Translations under genes and position numbers: made by a program
Part shown: in pieces, positions 20,293 to 39,397 of the stretch
Position numbering within the stretch: the stretch's first letter is position 1
Layout: each line of letters starts with the position of its first letter
The notes under the pieces: generated by a model
Seen by the model: the letters and a program-made list of their open reading frames with translations, nothing else
Database searches by the model: none
Told to the model about the DNA's origin: nothing
From: Euhalothece natronophila Z-M001
Lineage (GTDB): Bacteria > Cyanobacteriota > Cyanobacteriia > Cyanobacteriales > Rubidibacteraceae
Reading direction: 5' to 3'
Assembly: GCF_007904085.1 (NCBI RefSeq)
Contig: NZ_CP042326.1
Location: 2,418,001-2,482,000, forward strand
DNA: 64,000 bases

Positions 20293-20680
20293 GGGGCCGT
20301 AATGGTTTCGACAGGCTGGTGGAAGCCGACCCGTGATGCAGGCCGAGAGAGAGTCAACTCTCGATAATAAAGACTCACAAAATAGTAATTGCGAACAACA
20401 TCGTTCCTTTCGCTCGTAAAGCAGCCCCTGTAGCTGCCTAAAACACCTCTAAACAGGTTCGAGCACTCATTGTCTGACACCGTTAAGGGCAATGGGTAAA
20501 ACCCAACGGTTGCTCACTTTCTAAGCTATCTGGTCTAGGAAAGTGAAAAGACTTAACCAGAGAACCCTCTCATCTGGGATAAAAGATGAGTCCTGTCCTG
20601 AGGGTTAGAAGGACTAAGCCTGTGAAGGATCGGGAGGTCAATAGCCAGTCTGGACAGCAGTTCGATTCTGCTCGGCTCCA
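20293..20680 (+). ncRNA. ssrA: Transfer-messenger RNA (one-piece)
   Basis: Rescues stalled ribosomes by acting first as tRNA-Ala and then as mRNA. The 5' end GGGGCCGTAATGGTTTCGAC and the 3' end TTCGATTCTGCTCGGCTCCA form the tRNA-like domain, with the CCA encoded. The resume codon GCG (20391-20393) opens a frame giving ANNIVPFARKAAPVAA and stopping at 20439-20441. This ends in the hydrophobic degradation signal and has the usual cyanobacterial form. Pseudoknot-forming segments follow. Immediately after the CCA there is a T5 run. Confidence 0.97.
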
Positions 20681-20683
20681 TTT

Positions 20684-20974: not shown

Positions 20975-23900
20975 ATGCGATTTTCCTATGTGCGACCTGA
21001 ACTGGTCGGTTGAATCGGTGTAACCCTTACACCACAGGGATTTCCACCCCTGTCCTTCGTGGAAAGCTCTCCTCATCTGGAGAGTGGCGACGCTGGTAGT
21101 AAGTAATGAATCCAGTGGAATGCACGCCCCTAACGTAACGGTTGCTGGTAGGGATTAACTGGTTTCCGTGCTAGAAGGAGAATTGGAAGGATGAACATAG
21201 CCTAAGCTGATGATTAAACTGCGTAACCTCGCAAACAGCCAAATTATTCCTGACAGGCTGTAACCAAAAGGTAAGAAGGTAGTTTGTATCTTATATGATT
21301 ATACGAACGTGGAAATACATCCCTTCCGCAGGAGAGTCAGCCATCCTAACCAAATCGTATGTTTAGCCGATACAACAGGGTAAGCCCTACAGAGTCTCCT
21401 TGACTGGTCGAGTCAGGAGTAGGGGGGAGGCAACAAACCCACAACTCTCTGGAGGGTAGAAGATGAGGCAAAAAGCGAATGCCAGCCTGTAATAGGTTGG
21501 ATAAAGGTTGAAACATTACCTTTGACCGAAAGGAACAGCAGACTTGCCTTGGGTCTTATACGGAAGTGAAGTTTACAAGGGTGACGAACCCAAGGAGAAG
21601 TTAGATGTCATCTATAACGTTGACAAATGGACTAAGGGGACAGCTTTCAGACTGGGGTCAAATTAACTGGCGTAAAGTCAAGAAGTCTGTCAGAAACTTA
21701 CGTATGCGAATCTTTCGTGCTAAAAGTCTTGGTCAGTGGAAGAAGTTACGCCGACTTCAGAAGCTGTTGTTACGAAGCCGAGCCAATTTGCTTTTATCAG
21801 TGCGACAAATCACTCAAATCAATCAAGGAAAGCGAACCGCAGGGGTAGATAAGGAGGTATTAAACACCCCAAACGAGTGAGTGAAACTTGTGAACAGTTG
21901 GGAGATGCCCAAGGCTAACCCGACACGACGAGTTTACATACCCAAGTCAAATGGGAAGAAACGTCCCCTCGGAATCCCTACCGTACGGGATAGAGTCGCA
22001 CAAGCAATGGTTAAAAATTTACTAGAACCTGAATGGGAAGCCGTATTTGAGCCTAATTCCTACGGATTTAGATGCGGTCGAAGTTGTCAGGATGCTATAG
22101 CACAATGCTTTCAAAGGTTGAGTATCAATCCCTCAAGTTGCACCGACAAATGGGTTCTGGATGCTGATATTTCAGGTTTCTTCGACAACATTGCCCATGA
22201 ATCTATCCTGACAGCAATTGAATCTGTACCACGTGGAGATTTAATTGAAGGATGGTTAAAAGCTGGTTACCTCGACAATGGGATTCTCAATCCAACCGAT
22301 ACGGGGACACCTCAAGGTGGGGTGATAAGCCCTCTGTTAGCAAACATTGGGTTACATGGGTTGGAAGACTACATTAAGTCAATCAACCCGAAGGTCGGAG
22401 TTATTCGTTATGCAGATGATTTCGTCGTCACCTCCAAGGATAAAGAGAGTCTCGAACAAATCTTAGACCAGATAAAGCAATGGATGTCCAAAAGAGGTCT
22501 AGAAATCAGCACGGAGAAGACGAGAATCGTCTCAATGGAAGAAGGTTTTGACTTTCTTGGGTTCAACTTACGTCACTACGGTGGCAAATTACTGATTAAG
22601 CCCCAGAAGAAGAAGGTTCTTGCCTTCTGTAAAAAGATTGGGGAAACTCTAAGAAAAATGAAAGCCTGCACTCAGGAAGAGGTCATTAAAATCCTAAATC
22701 CACTTCTCCGAGGTTTTGCTAACTACTACAGAGGAGTAGTAAGCAAATCAACCTTTAGCTATATTTCACATCGAGTATGGCAATACCTCTGGAAATGGTG
22801 TTGTCGGCGACACCCAAACAAAAGCAAAAAGTGGGTACGAGCTAGATACTTCGGTTCATACAGAGGGAATCATTGGACTTTTATGTGCAAAGGGACTGGT
22901 CGTGGAAATAAAGAGAAACTCTTTGTTCTTTATGACATCAGTAGTACACCCATAGTAAGGCACGTGAAAGTCAAAGGGACAGCAAGCCCTGATGACCCCT
23001 CACTTCGGGACTATTGGCACAAGAGAAACCTCAAGATAGGAAAACAAAAATGGGCGAAAGGCTCTAAGAATGAGCAAGTAGCCAAGATGCAAGAGCATAA
23101 GTGTCCTATTTGTGGTGATAGCCTCTATAACGGAGAAGAAATCGAAACCCACCACATAGTACCTGTGAAAGATGGTGGCTCGGACGACACCGAGAATTTA
23201 ATCCACTTACACAAAGCGTGTCATAAACAGGTACACAGTTCAAAATCCAAGACGAAGGCTGGAAGTAAGGCTTGAGCGGTATGATGGGAAACTGTCACGT
23301 ACCGTTCTTAGGGGAGGGGAGAGAGGCGACTCTCGAACCTTACCCGCTCAATATCGCCTCAAACCTGACAAAGAGCAAGTAGCCAAGATTGAAAAATGGC
23401 TAGAGATGCTTCGCTGTCAATACAACTATTTGTTAGGTCAAAGGTTCGACTGGTGGGAAACTCATCGCACGGCTGTTAACTCATGCTCTTTAATCTGTCA
23501 TCTCCCAGAGTTATCTGACCGTCCCACTTATTTTTCGCAAAAACAAAGGCTAACTCAACTGAAAAAGGATAGACCTTGGTATAAAGAGGTTCAGTCACAA
23601 GTCCTTCAAGATTGTGTAAAAAGAGTTGACTTAGCTTTTCAGCGTTGGCTTAGAGGGGATAAGAATGGGAAGAAATCAGGTAAGCCAAGATTTAAGGGAA
23701 AAGGACGTTATCGAACAATTTTGTTTCCACAAGTCAAACCTGATTGTATTCAAGGTGACTACATCACCTTACCTAAGTTTAAGACAATTCGGTTGATTAA
23801 ACATCGTCCTCTACCCGATGGGTTCAAGATTAAAACCGCTCAGGTAACAAGGAAAGCTGATGGTTACTACTTAACGCTTTCTCTAGAAGATATCTCAGTT

Positions 23901-33516: not shown

Positions 33517-34314
33517 ATGTTACGCTCTTTCACAATTGGTTTATCGGCTTGTGCGCTGGGAGTGAGTAGTTTTCCTGTCGCTGCCACAGCCAATTCAGTT
33601 TCTCCGTTACAACGTTGGTCTCAGCAATTATCCCAAGCAGAGAGGATTCCAGAGGTAATTGTTGATACAGTTCCCGACAATGATCCAGTTTCTTCTGAAC
33701 CAATAGCGCAAGAAGATGTGATTATTGATACTGAACCAGACCAGACTAATCCCACTCCAAGCAATGAGAACAGCGATCGCCGCTTTACTTGTGAAAGAAA
33801 TAATGGAGAATACACGGTGGTATATCGCCCACAAAGTGACCCCAATACTCCTTACGCTTGGGCGATTCCTGAAGAAATGGGAAGTGATTGGTCGCCCCAG
33901 AGACGCTGTCAGACGATTAGCGACCGCTTAGAACGCTATCGCCCAGATGGGTTAATGGAATTACAAACAACGAGCATGAATGGAGAAGATGTGGTCTGTG
34001 TGACCACGGAAGCTGACAATAGTTGTCGGATTGTTTTTACGGTTCCTCGGGGACAAGATCCACTCACAACGCGCGATCGCGTTTTTGAAAATCTTGCTGA
34101 TGCCCATGAAGGACGACGAACCCAAGGTGTGCGAACCTTTACTGATAACTCTAGCTTGGGTGATCTGCTACGAGGGGGATCGTCTCAGTCTCGTCAAACC
34201 AGCGAGAATATTAACCTACGTCCTTTCTTGGATGAAGCAGATGGGGGAACGGGTCAAGAATTACGCTCAAATGATTCTTCTCCTTCTAATCTCGATCCCG
34301 ATCTCTTTCGTTAA
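33517..34314 (+). CDS. COP23-domain secreted or lumenal protein
   Basis: 265 residues. A signal peptide (about 1-25, cleaving near PVAATANS) is followed by an acidic, Pro/Asp-rich linker (about 45-85) and the COP23 domain (about 87-205): RRFTCERNNGEYTVVYRPQ, TPYAWAIP, RRCQTISDRLERYRPDGL, DVVCVT, CRIVFTVPRGQDP. The four cysteines could form disulfides outside the cytoplasm. COP23 was named from a circadian-oscillating protein in Cyanothece, and its activity is unknown. A disordered acidic tail follows. Confidence 0.85.
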   Translation: MLRSFTIGLSACALGVSSFPVAATANSVSPLQRWSQQLSQAERIPEVIVDTVPDNDPVSSEPIAQEDVIIDTEPDQTNPTPSNENSDRRFTCERNNGEYTVVYRPQSDPNTPYAWAIPEEMGSDWSPQRRCQTISDRLERYRPDGLMELQTTSMNGEDVVCVTTEADNSCRIVFTVPRGQDPLTTRDRVFENLADAHEGRRTQGVRTFTDNSSLGDLLRGGSSQSRQTSENINLRPFLDEADGGTGQELRSNDSSPSNLDPDLFR

Positions 34315-35439: not shown

Positions 35440-35500
35440 CATTTGTCTTTTGTCCTTAGTTGTTTGTCCTTTGTTGACCAATAATCAATGACTAATGACT
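35440..35500. repeat. Heptamer-type repeat in the cysQ-cobW gap
   Basis: TTTGTCCTTAGTTGTTTGTC, then CTTTGTTGACCAATAATCAATG and ACTAATGACTG: the AGGACAA and TTAGTCA units in inverse order. It spans the junction of two convergent genes and runs slightly into the cobW 3' end. Confidence 0.55.
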
Positions 35501-36568
35501 GTTTGCAGAAACAGCTTTAGGAGAAGGACTTACTTGCATCAATTTTTCCTTGATATTTCCCTCGTCTAGGTCTTGTCCAATTAAAACTAAACGAGTTTGA
35601 CGGGGTTCATCAGTTTCCCAAGCGCGATCGTAAAACGATTCTAAATGTTTTCCGACCCCTTGTACCACTAACCGCATTGGCTTATTGGGAACATTCACAA
35701 ATCCCTTAACCCGATAAATTTCTGCTTCTTGAAACAATTGTTGTAAGCGTTTCATTAGAGGTCGCGGCTCAAACGCTTCATCTAAAACCAGCTGCACTGA
35801 ATTAATATCCTCATCATGTTCGTGATCTTCTTCGTGATCATGATGACTGTGACGACTGTCTAAATTTTCCTCCACTGAGGCATTAAACCCTAATAAAACA
35901 TCAGGATGAATTTGTCCATCATAACAAGGAAGAATACTGACTCCAGCAGGTAATTCTTGCTGTAACCAATTTTCTACCTTCTCTCGGGTTGCACTATCTA
36001 CTTGATCCGCTTTTGTTAATAAGACTAAATCAGCACAAGCTAATTGATCCTCAAACAATTCCTCAATGGGAGTCTCATGTTCTAAATTGGGATCAGCTTG
36101 ACGTTGGGCTTGTAATGCGTCTAAATCTCCCACTAACGCCCCACTAGCTAAAGCCTCACAATCAACAACCGTAACCACTCCATCAACCGTCGCACCATTC
36201 CGAATTTGGGGCCAACGGAAGGCTTGCACAAGGGGTTTCGGTAAGGCTAATCCTGAAGTTTCCACCACAATGCAGTCAATCTCATCACGACGTTGTAAGA
36301 GTTCTTGCATTGTCGGGAAAAATTCCTCTTGTACGGTGCAGCATAAACAGCCGTTGGTTAATTCAACAATATTATTGCTACTGTTTTCTTCTTCATCACA
36401 AACTTGACAGCTACGGAGTAAGTCACCATCAATGCCTACTTCTCCAAATTCATTAACGAGGACAGCAATTTTCCGTCCTTGATTATTTTGTAAGAGATGT
36501 CGAATCAGTGTCGTTTTACCAGCACCAAGAAAACCAGTAACAACGGTAACAGGAATTTTCGCTCCCAT
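35492..36568 (-). CDS. cobW: CobW-family GTP-dependent metallochaperone
   Basis: 358 residues of the G3E GTPase family. P-loop GFLGAGKTTL (about 12-21), the metal-binding CLCC motif (about 74-77, TNGCLCCTVQ), GTPase motifs near TKADQ, and an internal His/Asp/Glu-rich stretch (SRHSHHDHEEDHEHDED) that can bind zinc, cobalt or nickel. The CobW C-terminal domain follows (ADLVLLTKAD... RVKGFVNVP). Members deliver Zn, Co or Fe to target enzymes. As the last gene after HupE and DUF2808 behind a cobalamin riboswitch, a cobalt role is likely, with the usual caution that many are zinc-linked. Confidence 0.93.
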   Translation of the reverse strand: MGAKIPVTVVTGFLGAGKTTLIRHLLQNNQGRKIAVLVNEFGEVGIDGDLLRSCQVCDEEENSSNNIVELTNGCLCCTVQEEFFPTMQELLQRRDEIDCIVVETSGLALPKPLVQAFRWPQIRNGATVDGVVTVVDCEALASGALVGDLDALQAQRQADPNLEHETPIEELFEDQLACADLVLLTKADQVDSATREKVENWLQQELPAGVSILPCYDGQIHPDVLLGFNASVEENLDSRHSHHDHEEDHEHDEDINSVQLVLDEAFEPRPLMKRLQQLFQEAEIYRVKGFVNVPNKPMRLVVQGVGKHLESFYDRAWETDEPRQTRLVLIGQDLDEGNIKEKLMQVSPSPKAVSANSH

Positions 36569-36585
36569 ATTAGCTCCTTAAATTA

Positions 36586-37143
36586 TTAACGAAATGTTCT
36601 GAAAGGGCGACGACGTTGTCGCTCGTAAAATTGCAATCGTCCCACTCCCATGTAGAAGTCATGGTCAGAATTGGCGGTGGGACTAGCCGTGACCCCAAAT
36701 AAGTAAACGCCACCTGTTCGGGGATTTCTTCTGGGTTTCAGTCCTAAAGTGACGGTGGTTCCAGGTTCAACTGGTTCTTCAAATTGAGCCGTAATTTCAC
36801 GCTTATCTTCACTTTGAGAAACATTAGCCAGAGGAATCTTGTCTTGTCTATCTCGGGAAGTCCCGATAAAGGCAGTGGTTTCATCCAGTAAGAAAGGGAT
36901 ATCACTAAATCCCCCTCGTTGTTCAATAATCAGTTCATTCAGAGATTCAACTGCATCTTCAGGAATGGTCACAGTAAAGTAGTAAGTTGCTCCACGCACT
37001 TGCGTATCATTAAAGGTGGTGCGGACGTTTTCTAAACGGGGAGCCGCTTCAAAAAATCCTCTCCCTGCTGCTAAGGCTTCAGGTATGATTATTCCGGAAG
37101 TGCCAGCAGTAACTGTGAGCGCAATAATCCATGAAAAACGCAT
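36586..37143 (-). CDS. DUF2808 secreted protein
   Basis: 185 residues. An N-terminal signal peptide (MRFSWIIALTVTAGTSGIII, then PEALAA) is followed by the DUF2808 domain (VRTTFNDTQVRGATYYFTVT, IPEDAVESLNELIIEQRGG, FVGTS/SRDRQDK-like middle, EEPVEPGTTVTLGLKPRRNP). DUF2808 is a cyanobacterial family of extracytoplasmic proteins with unknown function, found near metal genes in several genomes. The gene sits 18 bp before cobW and 18 bp after hupE, so it belongs to the same operon. Confidence 0.85.
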   Translation of the reverse strand: MRFSWIIALTVTAGTSGIIIPEALAAGRGFFEAAPRLENVRTTFNDTQVRGATYYFTVTIPEDAVESLNELIIEQRGGFSDIPFLLDETTAFIGTSRDRQDKIPLANVSQSEDKREITAQFEEPVEPGTTVTLGLKPRRNPRTGGVYLFGVTASPTANSDHDFYMGVGRLQFYERQRRRPFRTFR

Positions 37144-37161
37144 GACTTCTCCTGATGATGA

Positions 37162-37818
37162 TTAAAATGTAGAGGTAATAAAGATGATTCCCATCCCTAC
37201 AATTCCGCAACCAAGTAGTTGATTCACGGGAAGTGTGGGAGAACTAATTTTAGGCGTTACAGTTTGGGCAAGTTTATAGCTACCAAGGGCAATTAGTAAC
37301 TGGATCAGGGTAAAACCAGCTAAGTAAGCAAGAATGGGAGTCATTTCTGCTCCAATGACAGCTTCCCCATAAGCATAGCCGTGAAAAATTCCCGCGATCG
37401 CGCTTCCAACGGCAATCACAAGACTATAAACTAAAGGCTGAGACTCTTCATTAGTCCGACGGTTGATTAATAAAATGCCCATGGCTAGAACCGAGATCCC
37501 AATTAAGGCTTCAACAAAGGGAATATCAATCTCTTGTAAATGAATCCCAGTTCCAATGGGGGTAGCCAGAATAAATCCTGTGGGAATTAACCAGCCTCGC
37601 TGACTGCCAACAGCAATTAGACCACTGGCAATTACAAATACTAAATGATCAATTCCGATAACCGGATGACCTAATCCTGATAAAAAGCCTTCGAGCCAGC
37701 TATTGGGTAATTCTCCCCCTGTTGGGTGGTGGGCGAAAGCAGGTTCAGTAAAGCTAAAAAAGGCTAAAATTGCAAATAGGACAACAGTTAATCCTAGTCG
37801 GGATTGATTCTTGTTCAT
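37162..37818 (-). CDS. hupE: HupE/UreJ-family metal transporter (probable cobalt or nickel)
   Basis: 218 residues. A signal-like first helix is followed by a His-rich exposed start (AFAHHPTGGELP), then about six membrane helices. The family motif HPVIGIDHLVFV (about 51-62) and a further FHGYAYGEA supply metal-binding His residues. HupE/UreJ proteins import nickel or cobalt. Control by a cobalamin riboswitch about 220 bp upstream points to cobalt for B12 synthesis. It is the first gene of the operon. Confidence 0.92.
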   Translation of the reverse strand: MNKNQSRLGLTVVLFAILAFFSFTEPAFAHHPTGGELPNSWLEGFLSGLGHPVIGIDHLVFVIASGLIAVGSQRGWLIPTGFILATPIGTGIHLQEIDIPFVEALIGISVLAMGILLINRRTNEESQPLVYSLVIAVGSAIAGIFHGYAYGEAVIGAEMTPILAYLAGFTLIQLLIALGSYKLAQTVTPKISSPTLPVNQLLGCGIVGMGIIFITSTF

Positions 37819-38041
37819 AGTTATTATCTTGTTTTGGTGTGTAATAATGATGAAGTTTTAGAGACACGTCGCCTCTGTGCTTGAAGTTAAGTTCTTTCTT
37901 TGGGTTAGTAACTTTCCGAAGAGCAGTGATCGCTTATTTCAGGTGAGATCACCGTTGTAGTGATGGATAATGTAATATTGATAAAAAATACTGACATGGG
38001 CATCTGTACCTCGCAGATTGCTTCAAAGGTTGACAATGATT

Positions 38042-38170
38042 ACTTAGGCGGGTCTTCTGACTGAGAAATCGTTTTCACCACAGATTTCATCACAGCTGCG
38101 GGACAGTGTCGGTTTTTCACCGATCTTTCCCCATTGCTTTTGATCGCTGCTCCCGATCAAAACCTAAGCA
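38042..38170 (-). promoter_or_regulatory. Cobalamin (B12) riboswitch
   Basis: Read on the minus strand: closing stem TTAGG/CCTAA, then the core AATGGGGAAAGATCGGTGAA, GACACTGTCCCGCAGCTGTG, and the 3' part CAGTCAGAAGACCCGCC. This is the layout of the cobalamin riboswitch (B12-box region, then the GTCAGAAGACCCGCC end). It leads hupE-DUF2808-cobW. In this family binding of adenosylcobalamin reduces expression, so the operon would be made when B12 is low. A transcription-start or terminator element was not found in the remaining 220 bp. Confidence 0.9.
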
Positions 38171-38292
38171 TTTTGTTTACTATATCATAGTTTGCACTAT
38201 GATATACATTTATTAATCTTCTCAAAAGGTAGAAAACGTTGGAAGGCTAAGTTACCCTAAACTAGAGAAGGAATTCAAGGAGAGTTTGAGCT

Positions 38293-39397
38293 ATGGAAAT
38301 TACGGACTTAAAACGAGAAATACAAACGGTGTCGCAGCGCCTGGGCAAAGCCCAGGAGTATCTTTGACCCACCTTTAATCGAAGCGAAAATTGAAGATTT
38401 AGAACAACTTGCTGCCCAGCCTGAGTTTTGGGATGATCCAGAAACAGCGCAACAAACCTTGCAGAGACTGAATGATCTCAAGGCAAGTTTAGAACAATAT
38501 CAACAGTGGCGCGATCGCGCTGAAGATACCAAAGCCATCATTGAGTTACTTGAAGCCGAAGAAGATGAATCCCTCTGGCAAGAAGCTACAGACAACCTAA
38601 AACAACTCCAAGCCTCCCTTGATCAATGGGAATTAGAACAGCTTCTCTGTGATCCCTATGATGAAAGAGGGGCAGTAATTACGATTAATACGGGAGCCGG
38701 GGGAACCGATGCTCAAGACTGGGCGCAAATGCTATTGCGGATGTATTCTCGGTGGGCCCAAAGACGCGGTTATAAATCCCATCTGACAGAAATTTCCGAA
38801 GGAGATGAAGCGGGCATTAAATCAGCAACCCTCGAAATTGAAGGACGCTATGGTTATGGCTATCTCAAAGGGGAAAAAGGCACTCATCGCCTAGTTCGCA
38901 TTTCTCCTTTCAATGCCAATGGCAAACGGCAAACCAGTTTTGCAGGGGTAGAAGTTATGCCCATTTTGGATCAAACGACGATCCAAGATATTAAACTTCC
39001 CGAAAGTGATCTCGAAATTACCACCTCTCGTTCTGGCGGTGCAGGAGGGCAAAATGTCAACAAAGTTGAAACGGCGGTGCGAATTGTTCATATTCCCACT
39101 GGGGTAACAGTGCGCTGTACCCAAGAACGTTCCCAACTGCAAAACCGTGAAAAAGCCATGGCGCTTCTGAAATCAAAACTAATTGTTATTGCCCAAGAAC
39201 AACGAGCGCAAAAAATTGCCGAAATTCGAGGCGATGCAGTAGAAGCCGCTTGGGGAAATCAAATTCGGAACTATGTTTTCCATCCCTATCAAATGGTAAA
39301 AGACTTACGGACTAATGTTGAAACCAGCGCAGTTGAGGATGTTCTCGATGGGGAAATTGATTCCTTTATTGAGGCTTATCTTCGCAATAAGCAATGA
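38293..39397 (+). CDS. prfB: Peptide chain release factor 2, with programmed +1 frameshift
   Basis: Recognises UGA and UAA stop codons. The first 24 codons ([13 protein letters not shown]... to QEYL) end at an in-frame TGA (38365-38367). A +1 shift at CTT-TGA-C continues as [20 protein letters not shown] and on through the class-I factor to 39397. The SPF-like tripeptide region is in the anticodon-like domain, and the catalytic motif [15 protein letters not shown] contains the GGQ. Total about 367 residues, the normal length. A purine-rich CAGGAG lies 3 nt before the TAT-CTT-TGA site, as in other prfB genes. The TGA is autoregulatory. Confidence 0.95.
38355..38368 (+). promoter_or_regulatory. 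prfB +1 frameshift site
   Basis: CAGGAG TAT CTT TGA C: an internal Shine-Dalgarno-like sequence, the slippery CTT codon and the TGA stop. Shortage of RF2 leads to more frameshifting and thus more RF2; this is well established for prfB. Confidence 0.9.

Follow-up and report, generated by a model that had tools for sequence, protein, structure and literature searches.

The Riboswitch and the Three Genes Behind It

The minus strand of the DNA analysed here, a stretch of 64,000 nucleotides from Euhalothece natronophila Z-M001 (contig NZ_CP042326.1, positions 2,418,001 to 2,482,000; hereafter, the window), carries a cobalamin riboswitch followed by three genes, which encode a HupE/UreJ metal importer, a protein of the DUF2808 family, and the GTPase CobW (Table 1). 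The aptamer matches RF00174 over the full length of the model (positions 1-189 of 189) and scores well over its gathering score of 31.5 bits, which confirms the riboswitch core recognised in an earlier, sequence-only reading of this DNA. With the cyanobacterial model R1, which has this very riboswitch among its 26 training sequences, the score is 130.4 bits. A genome scan of Euhalothece gave this cobalamin riboswitch as the only one. The scores of the three proteins also exceed the cut-offs of their families (23 bits for PF04955, 25.3 for PF10989, and 332.1 for TIGR02475), and the order of the genes is as that reading had proposed, so its HupE/DUF2808/CobW operon behind a cobalamin riboswitch stands.

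Table 1. Features of the riboswitch operon, in order of transcription (positions are those of the window).
Feature	Position	Strand	Evidence
Cobalamin riboswitch aptamer (RF00174)	38030..38182	-	cmscan 70 bits, E 3.2e-15
Leader from aptamer to hupE, 211 bases, presumed expression-platform region	37819..38029	-	fold z -0.99
hupE, HupE/UreJ metal importer, 218 aa	37162..37818	-	PF04955 128 bits
DUF2808 gene, 185 aa, Sec-like signal peptide by eye	36586..37143	-	PF10989 153.7 bits
cobW, COG0523 GTPase, CobW equivalog, 358 aa	35492..36568	-	TIGR02475 506.2 bits

Two details of that reading need adjustment. Its range, 35492-38170, is correct at the cobW end, but the riboswitch continues 12 bases beyond 38170; and the spacing is tight, as it had stated, but the gaps are not 18 bp each, since the ORF list gives 18 bases between hupE and the DUF2808 gene and 17 between the latter and cobW. 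Shine-Dalgarno-like sequences are found at the DUF2808 gene (aggag) and at cobW (aaggag). A stable or unusual fold was sought in the leader and none was found (Table 1), nor does the scanned region contain a terminator-like site on the minus strand. The three terminator-like sites detected, all on the plus strand, and the five promoter-like sites are at chance level (shuffle means of 3.3 and 5.5, respectively). Judging from the aptamer at its head, the operon would respond to B12.

Divergently to the riboswitch starts prfB (38293-38367), in which the usual programmed +1 frameshift site, CTT TGA C after AGGAGT, can be read; because of this site, the ORF list puts the start of prfB late, at 38459. 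The window also contains a gene of the COP23 family (circadian oscillating protein; 33517-34314, 115.3 bits), a tmRNA gene (20293-20683, 138.2 bits), and a group II intron match (23272-23348, 57.6 bits).

HupE, CobW, and the Supply of Cobalt

HupE begins with a signal-peptide-like stretch, recognised by eye, which is followed by AHHPTGG, and further on carries HPVIGIDH, a form of the signature HPXXGXDH that has been described as a HupE motif (PMC7689651). The signature is present in 18 of the 20 HupE proteins examined, being absent from those of loci L095 and L200, both of family f1, to which the genome of the window belongs, while an AHH lies close to the N-terminus in all 20. This would make HupE itself, rather than DUF2808, the more probable place of first metal contact on the outer side. 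In Synechocystis, cobalt or methionine relieves the defect of a hupE mutant (PMC4284471, PMC7689651), and the high-affinity nickel importer is NikKLMQO, for which HupE does not substitute when it is lost (PMC5904137). One of the f1 genomes, G119, encodes a second HupE far from the riboswitch (G119:C1:1631359-1631916).

Against a cut-off of 600 in the ZigA model, CobW of the window reaches 158.7, and it contains the P-loop GFLGAGKT, a CLCC motif, and the His/Asp/Glu stretch HHDHEEDHEHDED. No cobN lies beside cobW at this locus, where the neighbours are the DUF2808 gene and a gene of the inositol monophosphatase family; cobW usually adjoins cobN, though the family model does not require it. CobW is reported to provide the Co(II) that corrin synthesis needs (PMC7689651). 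The functions of HupE as cobalt transporter and of CobW as Co(II) supplier are established in relatives. Control by cobalamin and the fit of both proteins with cobalt uptake and delivery, proposed from the sequence alone, are well supported by family assignment and by the literature on relatives.

The frequency of such arrangements was counted in 80 DUF2808-bearing genomes of the same order, out of 120 scanned for riboswitches, which are hence not a random cyanobacterial sample. Of these 80, 75 have cobW, and in 22 of them the gene follows a same-strand cobalamin riboswitch by at most 5 kb; 46 have hupE, which in 17 follows one by at most 3 kb. Both genes stand behind a riboswitch in eight. 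Riboswitch-cobW pairs are common among them, unlike the statement made in 2009, in the text available of PMC2770081, that cyanobacterial cobW is not riboswitch-regulated. In a metagenome paper from 2007 (PMC2211319), cobW and hupE stand behind B12 elements, the hosts being unnamed in the accessible text.

Conservation of the Operon in the Family and Beyond

Nine f1 genomes, which are those giving a match in two surveys (the second with 42 no-match genomes), were compared. The whole riboswitch-hupE-DUF2808-cobW order is found in six of them: the genome of the window (G000), G119 (L094), G157 (L095), G324 (L142), G375 (L141), and G350 (L200). In G157, the operon is otherwise whole, with the DUF2808 gene (L095:2091-2662) broken into two overlapping frames, either by a sequencing error or by decay. 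In G386 (L201), riboswitch, hupE, and DUF2808 follow one another up to the contig end, which falls inside DUF2808. G363 (L155) has the order riboswitch-DUF1636-DUF2808-cobW, and G337 (L140) keeps DUF2808-cobW with no riboswitch within the 12-kb locus; searches of both genomes found no HupE. The sole riboswitch found in G337 precedes a CbiM gene (L202:8413-9168), and this genome has two CbiM copies, compared with one in each of nine other genomes searched. A second CbiM behind a riboswitch, in a genome where no HupE was found, looks like an exchange of cobalt importer.

Since DUF2808 stands beside cobW in G337 and G363, it is not tied to HupE; the gene orders within f1 indicate that it keeps to cobW even in the absence of HupE or the riboswitch. 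Outside f1, the whole operon is present in G170 (L093), from family f15 of the same order. The DUF2808 protein of the window is 41-59% identical to the six other cobW-linked rows of the alignment. As the conserved cases come nearly all from one family, they represent few independent events.

The origin of this linkage was approached with trees. That of DUF2808 comprised 39 proteins, nine of them cobW-linked, with L003, L027, L032, and L033, which are long, and extra background rows excluded. In it, five rows form the genus group of the window (100/99), and the other cobW-linked rows have no firm placement; the tree requires three changes. The nine appear as one group in 0 of 200 bootstrap trees; holding them together costs 0.67 log units and is not rejected (p-AU 0.47). 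The CobW tree requires two changes, with the nine again grouped in 0 of 200 bootstrap trees, and when they were held together the tree scored 1.13 higher (p-AU 0.63). These tests neither show nor reject a single origin.

Specificity of the Link Between DUF2808 and the Riboswitch

Among the 291 genomes of the phylum that were surveyed, 137 encode a DUF2808 protein. Riboswitches were scanned in 119 of these 137, the 18 omitted being all of family f25, and in G095, which has no DUF2808 match; the scans of more than 40 genomes used stricter filters, under which weak matches are lost. Among 150 listed DUF2808 places, which cover the stronger matches and belong to 93 genomes, all of them riboswitch-scanned, four follow a same-strand riboswitch scoring over the cut-off at a distance of no more than 5 kb, against a chance expectation of about 0.12 (a rough figure, based on one mean genome size and ignoring kinship). 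The four are those of G000, G119, G157, and G170, three of them from one family. A fifth case is found in G008, where DUF2808 lies 8.4 kb from the riboswitch, with other genes between. In the same genome, a DUF2808 gene is preceded by what by eye looks like a pyruvate kinase gene and followed by another gene (L096:12684-13487) that by eye looks similar to the LmeA-like gene found by Pfam after hupE in G141 (L104:6113-6949).

The same four genomes account for half of the eight in the order with both hupE and cobW behind the riboswitch, DUF2808 being placed between the two genes in all four and absent in the other half (G068, G227, G253, and G261). Riboswitch-HupE-CobW loci without DUF2808 are L163, L164, L206, L207, and L208, the first of them from G033, a genome outside the order. 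DUF1636 takes part in the cassette at L155 and L096, according to Pfam, and at L164, L210, and L211, as read from the sequence. In a search of 60 riboswitch loci with flanks of 1.5 kb, 41 yielded neither HupE, DUF2808, nor CobW.

Away from these cassettes, DUF2808 keeps other company. Next to the second DUF2808 gene of the Euhalothece genome (L097), neither HupE nor CobW was matched. The neighbours at 23 further DUF2808 loci are varied, and of the 188 Pfam families matched there, the 25 most frequent include none connected with cobalt or B12 (83 of 88 neighbouring proteins were used, the five longest being left out); three neighbours matched GDT1, a divalent cation antiporter family. In a scan of named genomes with narrow patterns, four DUF2808 loci, two from Coleofasciculus and two from other cyanobacteria, showed neither HupE, CobW, nor riboswitch in the DNA covered; the contig of L106 stops just after its DUF2808 gene. 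In G375 and G337 (L215:1865-3322 and L216:2724-4586), a DUF2808 domain follows a caspase domain (Peptidase_C14) within one fused protein, and orthocaspases with DUF2808 have been reported (PMC7475262).

The DUF2808 proteins known here from papers alone are Sll0470, whose homologues are often near pntA (PMC6560206), and All7597, which is among the 'U-proteins' in an exoproteome comparison of an Anabaena zur mutant (PMC10957091). This last paper is the only one among the DUF2808 papers found whose available text contains the word cobalt, and the family also turns up in PMC8283722. No link between DUF2808 and B12 appears in the accessible text of the DUF2808 literature searched, which lies mostly outside subscription journals.

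Therefore, the link between DUF2808 and the cobalamin riboswitch is real and, as far as searched, lineage-restricted. The sequence-only reading was to be abandoned if DUF2808 genes showed no B12 link elsewhere; such links exist in other genomes, but they are confined to one family and one genome of another, and most of the listed DUF2808 genes lack them.

These data can be read in more than one way. The explanation we favour, with modest confidence, is that the DUF2808 protein is an exported accessory in a B12-controlled cobalt supply operon, a role deduced from its genomic context. The main rival, which we regard as possible but distinctly less probable, is that DUF2808 is a passenger, that is, a general envelope beta sandwich co-expressed with the operon that it happens to occupy in one lineage, with no part in cobalt handling. 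The wide distribution of the family, its varied neighbours without cobalt or B12 families among the commonest, its fusion to caspase domains, the concentration of the operon cases in nearly one family, and the lack of any conserved His or Cys (see below) would all be expected of a passenger. Against a passenger speaks that DUF2808 is kept in every one of the nine f1 genomes compared and also in one genome of f15, at the sequence identities given above, and that it persists where no HupE was found, the first gene has changed, or the riboswitch is absent, adjoining cobW as far as the contigs extend.

The DUF2808 Protein

The N-terminus of the protein resembles, by eye, a Sec-like signal peptide ending in ALAA, and the protein is probably exported. 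An AlphaFold2 model built from 41 sequences (mean pLDDT 87.9, pTM 0.77) predicts that the residues from about 30 to 176 form a beta sandwich. In a Foldseek search, TTHA1873 from Thermus (E 8.2e-6) ranks first and YcnI from Bacillus (9.4e-5) second, with a pilin (1.3e-4) close behind. With VIA-align 2, the model aligns to TTHA1873 with Z 12.2 (rmsd 2.7, 132 residues), to YcnI also with Z 12.2 (rmsd 2.4, 116 residues, 9% identity), and to an uncharacterized Nocardia protein, 3esm, with Z 11.7; the beta sandwiches of adhesins, pilins, and integrins remain below these three, at Z 10.8 or less. The margin in favour of TTHA1873 and YcnI is small, and a common predicted fold is no proof of function.

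YcnI, a DUF1775 protein which together with TTHA1873 is among the solved folds nearest to the predicted DUF2808, is an exported copper protein that binds Cu(II) through a Glu and the His at the N-terminus of its mature form, and the importer YcnJ can exchange Cu(II) with it (PMC8424229, PMC12154828). This raises the alternative that DUF2808 is itself an extracytoplasmic Co(II)-binding metallochaperone, as YcnI is for copper. The fold similarity, the linkage of its gene to those of a metal importer and a metal chaperone, and the acidic character of position E66 in 38 of 41 aligned rows speak for it. Nevertheless, no His or Cys is conserved across the 41 aligned DUF2808 proteins; the commonest His, at position 171, occurs in 16 rows and in only one of the seven cobW-linked ones, three of which (L113, L114, and L115) are entirely devoid of His. 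The mature N-terminal His ligand of YcnI is not shared by DUF2808 (13 of the 41 rows begin at the domain, so that their N-terminus is not visible). Nor was a sequence relation to DUF1775 found: with a limit of E 1, the 41 members match 21 families, and this one is not among them. A search of the PDB gave seven matches, the best with E 0.058, to designed proteins, which were taken as chance. Direct metal binding by DUF2808 is not supported by the aligned sequences, nor by its position next to cobW in G337 and G363, where searches found no HupE, and such a metallochaperone seems quite unlikely. Of the cobalt handling at the cell surface suggested by the sequence-only reading, what survives is an accessory part, made plausible by the context and the YcnI-like fold, but not the binding of the metal through conserved His or Cys.

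A Proposed Role for the Operon

That the operon serves nickel or zinc, to which some bacterial HupE/UreJ proteins and many COG0523 proteins, respectively, have been linked (PMC2667541, PMC2770081), is very improbable, given the cobalamin riboswitch at its head, the scores of CobW with the CobW equivalog and ZigA models, and the use of NikKLMQO rather than HupE for nickel in Synechocystis (PMC5904137).

The favoured reading, an accessory to B12-controlled cobalt supply, starts from the observed aptamer, gene identities, gene order, and conservation of that order, and from the predicted fold. Cyanobacteria make pseudocobalamin, and when this compound or cobalamin becomes scarce, the riboswitch would permit expression of the operon. 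HupE would then carry Co(II) across the inner membrane, and CobW would pass it to corrin synthesis. The DUF2808 protein would be exported to the periplasm or the envelope and may assist the passage of cobalt to the cell or to HupE; its likeliest function there is that of a structural or docking partner rather than of a metal chaperone with His or Cys ligands. Its role is the weakest step of the mechanism; the same gene order in relatives points to a part of DUF2808 in cobalt supply, without constituting a proof. A more specific version, rather unlikely in its exact form, would make the DUF2808 protein of this lineage an exported YcnI-like beta sandwich, accessory to B12-controlled cobalt import. 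It would either dock at the N-terminal His-His of HupE or hand cobalt on to the cell, and it would be expressed when B12 is scarce.

Similar systems are known. In cyanobacteria, a cobalamin riboswitch precedes a hupE whose product is predicted or reported to transport cobalt (PMC4284471, PMC7689651); in the text available of those papers hupE alone is named, whereas here DUF2808 and cobW follow it in a tight operon. The proteobacterial riboswitch-cobW clusters (COG0523 subgroup CobW) likewise have a true CobW behind a B12 riboswitch, but here cobW lacks an adjoining cobN and is joined to HupE and DUF2808. The copper operon ycnKJI of Bacillus subtilis also expresses an importer and an exported beta-sandwich protein together, although no sequence relation was found, the N-terminal His is missing here, and metal and regulator are others. 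Finally, other DUF2808 proteins share the Pfam family, standing at 23 loci among other genes. In sum, the operon is conserved and of a previously known kind, with DUF2808 added as a new variation.

That a cobalamin riboswitch precedes cobW in many cyanobacteria differs from the published view that the gene is not under B12 control there. The conserved structure of the operon ties the cyanobacterial DUF2808 family to B12 and cobalt, which is a modest but testable clue, and the finding bears on how cyanobacteria secure their cobalt.
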